Positions 1,813-9,308 of a DNA stretch of 9,308 nucleotides are shown here, one piece after another. Source of the stretch: Candidatus Eiseniibacteriota bacterium (GTDB lineage: Bacteria > JAFGKV01); NCBI GenBank assembly GCA_025453925.1, contig JALOPK010000108.1:1-9308 (forward strand). The letters run 5' to 3'. The notes under the pieces were generated by a model. It saw only the letters and a program-made list of their open reading frames with translations. It ran no database searches and was not told where the DNA came from. The position numbers and the translations under genes were made by a program. Numbering within the stretch: the first letter of the stretch is position 1; every line of letters starts with the position of its first letter.

Positions 1813-2271
1813 ATGAAGTACGTGAAGCCTCACCCGGAGAAATGCGGTTTCGTACAGGCCTGCATGCGAGCCTGTGCGCGGAAGACACAGAAGTCGGATG
1901 ACTTGTCCTTGTCATCCATTGTGGTCACCCAAGCTGATGGCGGCACGATCGACATCAACGTCTGCAATCAGTGCGGCACGTGCATCGACATCTGTCCAGT
2001 GACTGCCATCACCCGAACGAAGTCCGGCGCGGTGGTCGTGAACAAGAGCCTCTGCGTTGGCTGCTACTCCTGCGTCGAGTACTGCCCTACCGGCTCGATG
2101 CGGACCCACGCATCCCGTCTGGCGCCCTTCAAGTGTATCGCCTGCGGCGCCTGCGTCGAAGCGTGCCCTGCAGGCGCCCTGGAGCTTGCCGAGGGAGAGT
2201 TCGAGGCGTCCTATCTCGAATGTGAACAGGCCGGCGAACCGGGTGCCACGTTCTCCAAGAGCTACTTCTGA
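1813..2271 (+). CDS. Polyferredoxin, BamC/AorA-like electron-transfer partner of AOR
   Basis: A 152-residue cytoplasmic Fe-S protein. Three complete CxxCxxCxxxCP motifs are visible: C51-C54-C57-C61, C81-C84-C87-C91 and C108-C111-C114-C118, enough for three 4Fe-4S clusters. An N-terminal segment has C11, C17 and C21 with the same spacing as a fourth motif, but V14 stands where its second Cys would be. A further Cys, C137, lies near the C-terminus. No signal peptide or membrane segment is seen. The gene is followed after 44 bp by an AOR-family tungsten/molybdenum enzyme. By family precedent (BamC with BamB, AorA with AorB, YdhY with YdhV) it should carry electrons to or from that enzyme's own cluster. 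It could also serve other redox enzymes, but the adjacency makes the AOR partner very likely. Confidence 0.88.
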   Translation: MKYVKPHPEKCGFVQACMRACARKTQKSDDLSLSSIVVTQADGGTIDINVCNQCGTCIDICPVTAITRTKSGAVVVNKSLCVGCYSCVEYCPTGSMRTHASRLAPFKCIACGACVEACPAGALELAEGEFEASYLECEQAGEPGATFSKSYF

Positions 2272-2315
2272 CATCCCCTGAAGGTCTCCTCACGACGCGT
2301 ACACGGAGAGCTGCG

Positions 2316-4487
2316 ATGAGCGAAAAGACTATTGCCGAGATGAAGATCGCCCACCGCGTGGTGGCGACACATCATTATGAGCCCGCGCCAGTTGAGAAGG
2401 GCTATGCCAACAGGACCCTTCACGTGAATGTGGGCACTCGCGAGATCAAAGAGAAGCCGGTCACAAATGAGATGAAGGAGAAATTCACGGGTGGGCGGGG
2501 ATTTGGGTTGTGGCTGTTGTGGCATGCGGTCAAGGACACGACACGCTGGAATTCGGACGAGAACGAAATCGTGATCTCACCGGGCCCGTTGAGCGGCATC
2601 ACACAATACCCGGGATCGGGCAAGTCACTGGTGGTGGCGATTTCCCCCGTCACGGATCAGGTCATCGACTCCAATGTCGGCGGCTACTTCGGCCCCTACC
2701 TCAAGTTCTCCGGGTTCGATGCGCTGGAGATTCAGGGCAAGGCGGACCAAGACGTGATCATCGTGATCGATGGTCAGACCGGCCTGGTCACGATCGAGAC
2801 GGCTCCTGACGAACCGGCGGATACCCATCGGTTGGCCGAGGTTCTGACCCACATGTATGCGGTCGACGAGAAAGACATGCGCAATGTGTCGGTGGTGAGC
2901 GCGGGCAGCGGAGCCGATCATACACTGATCGGCTGCTTGAACTTCTCGCTGTGGGACGTGCGCCGGAAGGGCGTCCGAGTGAAACAGGCCGGTCGGGGCG
3001 GCATCGGGAGCGTCCTCCGCAACAAGCATGTCAAAGCGGTGGTGGTGCATGCGCCCCAGGTCCGCGGGGATGACAACCATCCGGGGGACTTGCAGGAAAT
3101 CCAGGCAACTGGCCGGAAGCTGCACCGCGAAGTATTCCAGAACGATTCGAGCATGGAGCGCATGCGCATGCGCGGAACACCGCACCTGGTCGAGGTGATG
3201 GACGCATTTGATCTGCTCCCCGTGAACAACTTCCAGTTCGGCCGTCACGACGACACGAAGCACATCGCATCCGACGTCTGGGTGAAGTGGTTCCACCAGG
3301 GCATCCCCGATGGATGCTGGTATGGCTGCACCTTGGCGTGCGCCAAGACGGTCGAAGACTTCGCGCTGTCATCCGGCCCCTACAGGGGCGAAGCGGTGCG
3401 AGTCGACGGCCCCGAGTACGAGACGGTGGCCGGCGTGGGGTCGAACTGCGGCATCTTCGATGCCCGCTACATCCTCGAGGTGAACTTCTACTGCGATACG
3501 TACGGCATCGACACCATCTCCTGGGGCACGCTGACGGCCTTCGCCATGGAGTGCTACGAGCGTGGCATCATCACCAAGGAGCACACCGGCGGACTTGAGC
3601 TGACGTTTGGCAACATCCCGGCGGCCCTGGAACTGCTCCATCAGGCGGCGCGCGGTGAGGGATTCGGCAGGATCGCCGGAATGGGTGTGCACAAGATGAA
3701 GGAGCACTTCGCCGCCCACTACGGCGCCGACATCGCTTTCCTCAACGATATCGGCATGGAGAACAAGGGGCTGGAGTACTCCCAATACGTCTCCAAGGAA
3801 TCGCTGGCCCAGCAGGGCGGCTATGCCCTTACCAACAAAGGGCCCCAGCATGATGAGGCCTGGCTGATTTTCATGGACATGGTCAACAAGCAGATCCCGA
3901 GCTTCGAAGACAAGGCGGAGGCACTCTACTACTTCCCTCTGTGGCGAACATGGTTCGGCCTCAACGGTTTGTGCAAGCTCCCATGGAACGACGTCGAGCC
4001 TGTGGACAACAAGAAGAAGCATCCTCCCAAGGAGGCAGCCAAGGTCCCTGAACACGTCGACAACTATGTACGACTGTTCAACTCCATGACCGGCAGGAGC
4101 ATCACCAAGGAGGAGGTGATCCTCCAGTCCAAACGCGCGTACGACTTTCAGCGCATATTCAACATCAGGCTCGGGAAGGGTCTCCGCCGGTTCGATGCGC
4201 AGCCCTACCGGGCGGCCGGTCCTGTGTCCGTTGAGGAGTATGAATCGCGGGCAGATCGGTACGACGAACAGCTCCGAACCGAGGTCGGCCTCACCATTGA
4301 CGGCATGAGCACCGCCGAGAAAGTGGCCGCCCTCAGGAAGTATCGAGAGGCCAGATACGAGAGGCTGATGGATGCCGTGTACGAGCGCCGGGGATGGACG
4401 AAGAACGCCGTCCCCAGGCTCGAAACCGTTCAGATGCTCGGCATCGACTATCCCGAGGTGGTCGAGGTGGTACAGCGCCACCTGTAG
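2316..4487 (+). CDS. Aldehyde ferredoxin oxidoreductase family W/Mo-pterin enzyme (BamB-like)
   Basis: A 723-residue cytoplasmic oxidoreductase of the AOR family. Members hold tungsten or molybdenum in a bis-pyranopterin plus one 4Fe-4S cluster, and interconvert aldehydes and carboxylates or catalyse related low-potential reductions. Visible landmarks are the RTLHVNV strand, GGRGFG at 59-64 (pterin-binding N-domain), SPGPLSG and SNVGGYFGPYLKFSGFDALEI of domain 1, GRGGIGS from 226, the cluster ligands C334, C338 and C342 in GCWYGCTLACAK, GGYALTNKGPQHDEA from 501, and the fourth ligand C553 in GLNGLCKLPW. A polar N-terminal extension of about 30-45 residues precedes the usual AOR start, and the protein is longer than the roughly 600-650 residues of classic members. 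GGAG at 2305-2308 lies 7 bases before the ATG. The upstream polyferredoxin is its likely electron partner. The sequence style recalls BamB of class II benzoyl-CoA reductase, but no other bam gene is visible, so I give no symbol. The substrate is unknown. Confidence 0.92.
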   Translation: MSEKTIAEMKIAHRVVATHHYEPAPVEKGYANRTLHVNVGTREIKEKPVTNEMKEKFTGGRGFGLWLLWHAVKDTTRWNSDENEIVISPGPLSGITQYPGSGKSLVVAISPVTDQVIDSNVGGYFGPYLKFSGFDALEIQGKADQDVIIVIDGQTGLVTIETAPDEPADTHRLAEVLTHMYAVDEKDMRNVSVVSAGSGADHTLIGCLNFSLWDVRRKGVRVKQAGRGGIGSVLRNKHVKAVVVHAPQVRGDDNHPGDLQEIQATGRKLHREVFQNDSSMERMRMRGTPHLVEVMDAFDLLPVNNFQFGRHDDTKHIASDVWVKWFHQGIPDGCWYGCTLACAKTVEDFALSSGPYRGEAVRVDGPEYETVAGVGSNCGIFDARYILEVNFYCDTYGIDTISWGTLTAFAMECYERGIITKEHTGGLELTFGNIPAALELLHQAARGEGFGRIAGMGVHKMKEHFAAHYGADIAFLNDIGMENKGLEYSQYVSKESLAQQGGYALTNKGPQHDEAWLIFMDMVNKQIPSFEDKAEALYYFPLWRTWFGLNGLCKLPWNDVEPVDNKKKHPPKEAAKVPEHVDNYVRLFNSMTGRSITKEEVILQSKRAYDFQRIFNIRLGKGLRRFDAQPYRAAGPVSVEEYESRADRYDEQLRTEVGLTIDGMSTAEKVAALRKYREARYERLMDAVYERRGWTKNAVPRLETVQMLGIDYPEVVEVVQRHL

Positions 4488-8359: not shown

Positions 8360-9308
8360 GTGGCCCGTAGGACGATTGCTGTCACACCGGTGATGCTCGC
8401 CGTCGCCATCGCGATCCGATCCACGATCGGAACCGTCCACCATTTCGCCGATGCCAGGCGGTCGTGCCCTCCGCTTTCCGGCCGGGCCAGCCCGCAAATC
8501 GTGCTTCAGGCTCCCGAGACAGGCTCAGGGTGGCGGGAACGCTATGCATGGCGATTTGGCGAAGACGCCGAACCCCTCCTGGGACGCGTGGCCTCCCCAA
8601 ACGAACTCGAGCGGCTACCGGCCGCCGAAGGTTCGTTCGGTGCCTGGCTGCGCCGGCTTCCAGTCAAGCCCGGCACCCCTCCGGTGCGCCTCTTCGATGG
8701 ACGACTGAAAGCCAACCAGAGCGCCCACCATGCGGTAGTCGACATCGACGTCGGCGGCCGCGATCTCCAGCAGTGCGCAGACGCCGTGATCAGACTCCGC
8801 GCTGAGTACTTGTGGGCTGCGGGCTGCGCGGACTCCATCTCGTTCTGCTTCTCCAGCGGCGACCCTGCCTCTTGGGGGGCGTGGGAGGCGGGGTATCGCC
8901 CATCGGCCCAAGGTTCGTCGGTTACCTGGGCCAGAACCGCCCCGGAGGAGGGGACCTACGCTGCGTTCAGGCGCTATCTCGACACGGTCTTCACCTATGC
9001 AGGATCGGCATCACTGGAACGGGAACTCGTCCGGGTGTCTGACCCGTCAAAGCCCGAGATCGGGGACGTGTTCATCCAAGGGGGATTCCCCGGGCATGCC
9101 GTCCTTGTGGCGGATGTGGCGGAGGATGATCACGGCCGGCGTTGGTTCGTGCTGGTCCAGAGCTACATGCCTGCCCAGGAAGTTCACGTACTTCGGAATC
9201 CGCTCGGTACGTGGTCACCGTGGTATCCCGCGCACGCCTCCGGAGCCCTCGTCACGCCTGAGTGGACGTTCAGTCATGAGGATCTGCATCGGTTTCCGGT
9301 TCTGGGCT
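8360..9308 (+). CDS. Exported DUF4846-family protein (3' partial)
   Basis: About 316 residues are visible and the frame runs off the window end. GTG 8360 gives a basic start (VARR) followed by a hydrophobic run (IAVTPVMLAVAIAI), resembling a signal peptide or anchor; ATG 8393 is an alternative that would break it. The body matches my memory of DUF4846 (PF16138): FGAWLRRLPVKPG, VRLFDG, VVDIDVGGRDLQQCADAV with C139, RLRAEYLW, FRRYLDTVFTYAGSASLE, GDVFIQGGFPGHAVLVAD with H246 and D252, VQSYMPAQEVHVLRN with Q267, WSPWY, and TPEWTFSHEDLHRF. The family has no proven function that I know of. A Cys at a helix followed by a Gly-His-Ala strand resembles NlpC/P60 or CHAP cysteine hydrolases, so an envelope hydrolase is a possible role. 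The protein is probably nearly complete at the window edge. It may be a separate transcription unit or the last gene of the preceding cluster. Confidence 0.8.
   Translation, partial: MARRTIAVTPVMLAVAIAIRSTIGTVHHFADARRSCPPLSGRASPQIVLQAPETGSGWRERYAWRFGEDAEPLLGRVASPNELERLPAAEGSFGAWLRRLPVKPGTPPVRLFDGRLKANQSAHHAVVDIDVGGRDLQQCADAVIRLRAEYLWAAGCADSISFCFSSGDPASWGAWEAGYRPSAQGSSVTWARTAPEEGTYAAFRRYLDTVFTYAGSASLERELVRVSDPSKPEIGDVFIQGGFPGHAVLVADVAEDDHGRRWFVLVQSYMPAQEVHVLRNPLGTWSPWYPAHASGALVTPEWTFSHEDLHRFPVLG

Follow-up and report, generated by a model that had tools for sequence, protein, structure and literature searches.

The window analyzed here is a single contig of 9,308 bases (C74), taken whole from a 3.9 Mb metagenome-assembled genome (MAG; G000) that is 82% complete. 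It carries two genes on the same strand, one for a small ferredoxin and one for a catalytic protein of the AOR family, which the first-pass annotation had described as a tight unit and labelled BamB/BamC-like. Both open reading frames (ORFs) were confirmed at the following coordinates, with 44 bases between them.

1813..2271, + strand: ferredoxin small subunit, WorS-type, 152 aa, with four 4Fe-4S motifs (Fer4 and related models)
2316..4487, + strand: catalytic subunit, WorL-type, predicted tungstopterin protein of the AOR family, 723 aa (AFOR_N + AFOR_C)

The small subunit matched models of 4Fe-4S proteins (Fer4, 5.7e-18), and the first of its motifs is atypical (C-x5-C-x3-C). We placed its start at the ATG at position 1813, which has a GGAGGG upstream; an alternative, longer start is available at the ATG at 1768. 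The large subunit carries both AOR domains (AFOR_N, 1.6e-47; AFOR_C, 1.9e-93). Domain searches of the 9.3 kb window recovered no FAD/NAD (flavin) subunit and no bamD-I gene, as the annotation had said of the surroundings of the pair, the rest of the genome not having been searched for bamD-I. The pair thus has the makeup of a Class II tungsten oxidoreductase (WOR): a WorL protein with AFOR_N and AFOR_C, an adjacent small subunit with four motifs and no flavin/NAD subunit in the window. Our analyses support the earlier suggestion of a stand-alone, two-subunit enzyme of the aldehyde type with an undescribed substrate. We consider it very probable that the pair is an aldehyde-oxidizing WorLS enzyme of an uncharacterized clade. 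As a whole, the reading of a Class II (WorL + WorS) enzyme of this clade whose most likely substrate is L-glutamate-5-semialdehyde has, in our estimate, a probability of roughly 0.55.

Placement and active site of the catalytic subunit

Among the named contigs and whole genomes that were searched, one group of proteins (~710-740 residues) shares 52-86% identity with the window AOR, and all other AORs share 35% or less; the gap between 52% and 35% is clean except for short, high-scoring fragments. The closest named relative is in a Candidatus Fermentibacteria MAG (L018; AOR 86% identical), and relatives outside the genus of the window organism are 52-65% identical. The group spans at least nine phyla (Acidobacteriota, Myxococcota, Cloacimonadota, Aminicenantes, Bipolaricaulota, Chloroflexota, Synergistota, Bacillota and Fermentibacterota). 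A 73-row tree, in which BamB was entered as its N-domain only, recovered the 38 members of the group as monophyletic with a support of 100 and a long stem, and within them the Fermentibacteria stood beside Acidobacteriota and Myxococcota (support 99). BamB with YdhV, the AORs (PfAOR, AorB) and GOR, the GAP:ferredoxin oxidoreductase of bacteria, all fell outside. The phylogeny that the annotation had proposed as a check placed the protein with neither BamB nor YdhV, and the BamB/BamC label was not supported. The nearest group was FOR (formaldehyde ferredoxin oxidoreductase), with a support of 88-90 that is not decisive. On this tree, the window AOR belongs to a distinct, uncharacterized clade of the AOR family. 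Of the 92 WOR clades counted in a 2026 survey, only five include a member whose physiological role is defined (PMC13328260).

The partner genes of the clade are also recurrent. By a motif scan, a ferredoxin ORF with repeated CxxCxxCxxxC lies directly upstream of the AOR gene in 89 of the 111 relatives with enough upstream sequence, a pairing far beyond chance. Directly 3' of the AOR, most relatives have a ThiS-like gene (~65 residues) of the WorX type (PMC13328260), and 75 of 100 loci hold one. Genes for ThiF, MoeA, ModE-like and TupABC proteins are common around the AOR in these genomes, so a tungsten enzyme would fit well.

Alignment of the clade located the following active-site positions in the window protein, each invariant in the 47 members aligned where so stated.

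3177..3179, + strand: T288, equivalent to PfAOR Thr243; invariant in 47 members
3315..3341, + strand: C334-WYG-C338-TLA-C342, ligands of the 4Fe-4S cluster; cysteines invariant
3420..3422, + strand: E369, equivalent to PfAOR Glu313; invariant in 47 members
3786..3788, + strand: Y491, equivalent to PfAOR Tyr427; invariant in 47 members
3849..3851, + strand: H512, equivalent to PfAOR His448; invariant in 47 members
3945..3947, + strand: R544, aligned to FOR Arg481; invariant in 47 members, Arg also in FOR-type proteins
3972..3977, + strand: C553, fourth cluster ligand, and K554, aligned to FOR Arg492; both invariant

Judged from the alignment, all the active-site residues of aldehyde oxidases are kept in the clade. 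A clade-specific CxxxCxxxC replaces CxxCxxxC and is one residue longer than in AOR, FOR, GOR and YdhV, and Lys 223 and Lys 508 are further marks of the clade (Arg in most relatives). The basic pair R544 and K554 is shared only with FOR-type proteins; none of AorB, GOR and YdhV combines the two, their residues at the K554 position being V, L and N, respectively. In FOR, Arg481 and Arg492 presumably contact the far carboxylate of glutarate. FOR binds this diacid, and its lowest Km is for glutaric dialdehyde (PMC12096430). An AlphaFold2 model of the window AOR (pLDDT, the model's own confidence score, of 91.9) likewise had FOR (1b25) as its best match among solved structures (Z of 43.6, 30% identity over 596 residues), with the AORs within about 1 Z of it. 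Pyrococcus furiosus FOR (1B25/1B4N) has its active-site set in common with the window enzyme, as well as the two basic residues close to the fourth cysteine of the cluster and Trp positions. It differs in being a one-gene homotetramer of ~620 residues, whereas the window enzyme is ~100 residues longer and has a ferredoxin subunit and the CxxxCxxxC motif; moreover, its sister relation to the clade is weakly supported (88-90). The ferredoxin plus catalytic subunit plan is that of AorABC from Aromatoleum, yet the window pair has no AorC, AorB is 24% identical in the structural alignment and the clade lies outside the AOR group.

Proline-type neighbors and a candidate substrate

Outside the family of the window organism, the catabolic genes that recur near the AOR produce or consume glutamate-5-semialdehyde/1-pyrroline-5-carboxylate (P5C). 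Genes of this kind lie within 6.5 kb of the AOR in 26 of 76 loci when the count takes in P5C dehydrogenase (P5CDH), ornithine cyclodeaminase, proline dehydrogenases of both types and the P5CDH-like aldehyde dehydrogenase (ALDH) of Anaerolineae; this trait changed at least 15 times on the tree. The gene order in Geothrix is TupA, P5C dehydrogenase, TupB, TupC, ferredoxin, AOR and ThiS. In Geothrix and G246, the P5C dehydrogenase next to the AOR scores above the cut-off of TIGR01236 and is the only strong P5CDH match of the three genomes concerned. TIGR01236 describes the NAD-dependent L-glutamate gamma-semialdehyde dehydrogenase, which performs the same step that we propose here but is an unrelated protein using NAD instead of tungsten and ferredoxin. 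Many Clostridia have a complex of four or five genes immediately next to the ferredoxin-AOR pair, and the best match of its FAD (beta) subunit (E of 1.7e-85) is 1y56_B, the beta chain of the L-proline dehydrogenase of P. horikoshii (PMC1949818). A PF01619 proline dehydrogenase (~2 kb away) and a regulator whose best match is PrdR lie within ~2-3 kb of the AOR in G204, a genome with no P5CDH match. The same pair of regulator and PF01619 enzyme, together with an ornithine cyclodeaminase, stands beside the AOR in L234. Across 398 genomes, a proline-dehydrogenase-like subunit was found in 24 of the 32 with the AOR and in 61 of the 366 without it (p of 1.2e-11), and in 14 of 22 versus 60 of 366 when Thermosediminibacteria were left out (p of 2.5e-6); both p-values are indicative because the genomes are not independent. 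The window MAG has a PF01619 proline dehydrogenase on another contig (C485) and no P5CDH-like hit at 1e-60, a combination that fits the oxidation of glutamate semialdehyde by the AOR, though absences from a MAG that is 82% complete are weak.

The weakness of such absences is one of several points that weigh against this substrate. No proline-type gene lies near the AOR in 50 of the 76 loci, or in the window itself, which also has no ThiS-like gene after the AOR, and PF01619 had no match in G001 and G002, the two other genomes of the family. In Thermosediminibacteria (L058, L024, L061, L225, L226 and L242), the ferredoxin-AOR pair is part of an operon for histidine degradation, and a monomeric FeFe-hydrogenase-like protein often comes next; histidine degradation makes no semialdehyde, and the proline idea does not explain the setting. 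Holophagaceae have a piperidine-6-carboxylate dehydrogenase above cut-off near the AOR, so the C6 homologue could be the substrate. The DAO/HcnB-type complex could act on hydroxyproline or sarcosine and not on proline. Finally, approximately unbiased (AU) tests rejected neither GOR nor BamB/YdhV as the sister of the clade.

Taking both sides together, glutamate semialdehyde appears, from the gene neighborhoods and the aligned pocket, to be the main substrate with slightly better than even odds. L-glutamate-5-semialdehyde is the open form of P5C and arises from proline, ornithine or arginine. The open-chain aldehyde would bind with R544 and K554 holding the acid group at its far end, as suggested by FOR, and would be oxidized to the acid at a bis-pterin tungsten cofactor, where, by analogy with AOR, E369 and H512 would act as acid-base groups. 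Electrons would then pass from the one 4Fe-4S cluster predicted in the large subunit to the four clusters of the small subunit and on to ferredoxin. As the product would be glutamate, the enzyme would be the ferredoxin-reducing counterpart of the NAD-dependent P5C dehydrogenase and would carry out a reaction known to date only from another type of enzyme; a literature search returned nothing tying the clade to proline. The role for the window's own organism is transferred from relatives that lie outside its genus and are 52-65% identical. We give an even chance to the broader proposal that a tungsten- and ferredoxin-dependent P5C oxidoreductase operates in at least nine phyla, beside the NAD-dependent P5C dehydrogenase or replacing it, and makes proline and ornithine catabolism a source of low-potential electrons. 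If so, ferredoxin and not NAD would take up the electrons when many anaerobes oxidize proline, ornithine and arginine, their energy yield would change (hydrogen, Rnf) and tungsten supply would matter for amino-acid fermentation. The proposal also gives a large clade without known function a specific, testable substrate.

Alternative substrates and enzyme identities

The strongest competitor retains the enzyme type and changes the substrate to aminoadipate semialdehyde, alpha-ketoglutarate semialdehyde or a range of aldehydes derived from amino acids. We regard it as a realistic possibility, although one with the odds against it. The Holophagaceae dehydrogenase already mentioned speaks for it, as do further ALDH types encoded next to the AOR in Aminicenantes and Anaerolineae and, in L161 and L234, a gene of the proline-racemase/hydroxyproline type. 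Against this, a true P5C dehydrogenase is a repeated neighbor of the AOR in separate lineages, and so are proline dehydrogenases of two unrelated types. A hydroxyproline dehydratase (HypD) considered in L161 was not supported, as the fragment fits PFL-like models better.

Broad aldehyde detoxification in the manner of AOR sensu stricto, with neighbors that are there by chance or for regulatory reasons, seems improbable. The canonical active site would suit such a function, and the family has many AORs of broad spectrum, but the pocket region has the FOR-like basic pair rather than the AOR pattern, and the repeated proline-type neighborhoods and strong co-occurrence also argue against it. Less likely still is the reverse reaction, in which low-potential electrons would reduce glutamate to the semialdehyde for proline synthesis. 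Strong donors do let AORs reduce acids (PMC6365974), yet the rates are very low and the neighbors (proline dehydrogenases, the PrdR-like regulator, histidine degradation) are catabolic.

We also weighed whether the pair could be a known two-subunit system, and the comparisons caution against taking a ferredoxin plus AOR pair for GOR or BamBC by default. An orphan core of the class II benzoyl-CoA reductase (BamBC) would have the same plan of an Fe-S and an AOR-like subunit, BamB is a distant homologue and, as noted, the AU test does not reject it as a sister. The clade nevertheless excludes BamB and YdhV in the tree, and it keeps the second-shell residues and has no extra Cys ligand; BamB and YdhV lack the four second-shell residues and have that ligand (PMC12096430). 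BamB was also last of the seven structural relatives by fold (Z of 34.8), making this identity very hard to sustain. We found no support for the suggestion that the thioesterase in the window supplies a free acid to the enzyme.

GOR is an equally poor prospect. The GOR (C. bescii XOR) identity was our first idea, from the subunit plan and the Tup/pterin neighbors: GOR is another two-subunit WorLS enzyme with ThiS/ThiF/Tup neighbors (PMC13328260, PMC6391272), and CbGOR has a ThiS-like partner gene, as do relatives of the window enzyme. Seven Caldicellulosiruptor genomes were located with a beta-glucosidase (BglA) marker (matches 92-95% identical), and each has one AOR-family gene, whose 589-residue product is ~25% identical to the window AOR. 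We take one of these genomes (G265) to be C. bescii. By eye, its AOR locus reads ferredoxin, ThiS/MoaD, MoeB, TupABC, MoeA and MoaA. This fits the published XOR/GOR locus of C. bescii (PMC6391272). The idea was dropped because the sole AOR gene of G265 belongs to this different, 589-residue clade. The Caldicellulosiruptor protein groups instead, with a support of 100, with a second AOR-family gene of the window genome (C350; L156:1795-3945, + strand), so the organism appears to hold a GOR in addition to the window enzyme. CbGOR and ASOR/WOR5 are Class II WORs of other clades; in WOR5 the Thr is absent and the Tyr is replaced by His, whereas the window clade keeps Thr and Tyr.

Flanking genes and variant loci

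The pair is flanked by a GT2 glycosyltransferase, a weak PMT-like membrane protein, an LPG_synthase_TM protein, a GDSL hydrolase and a hotdog thioesterase, in line with the glycosyltransferase and membrane glycan proteins reported earlier. A role in this glycan locus, such as the oxidation of a sugar aldehyde, has a minimal chance: the order radical-SAM (rSAM), GT2, AOR, PMT-like, LPG_TM and GDSL is common to the three genomes of the family (G000, G001 and G002), but the other relatives examined have different neighbors, with no recurring glycan genes in other phyla. Whether the glycan genes travel with the AOR was a check that the annotation had proposed; they do so within the family only. 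The window also holds a radical-SAM fragment, which adjoins the GT2 gene (1-1721) in an order kept in all three genomes, and a DUF4846 protein (8360-9307) truncated by the contig end. Among NCBIfam models, the GT2 protein best matches the mycofactocin glycosyltransferase MftF, but its score of 98.8 bits is far short of the cut-off.

Several relatives depart from the usual locus. In Aminicenantes (L079, L027, L033, L050 and L060), an unassigned ALDH-superfamily protein (~520 aa) that falls far short of all NCBIfam cut-offs adjoins the AOR, and the ferredoxin gene is not directly upstream. A second clade member in G079 (C1:109938-111510; L123, L131) is broken by a stop codon and pseudogene-like, with an intact copy on C2. 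In G002 (C198; L204:4734-10073, minus strand), the clade AOR is split exactly at the AFOR_N/AFOR_C border, so that AFOR_N fused to a NuoE-like domain is followed by NuoF and then by a NuoG-like N-terminus fused to AFOR_C. The fusions are in frame, the key residues are kept and the 80 bases upstream leave no room for a ferredoxin gene. Unless it is an assembly error, this arrangement could represent a version of the tungsten enzyme that is linked to NAD through a diaphorase module embedded in it.
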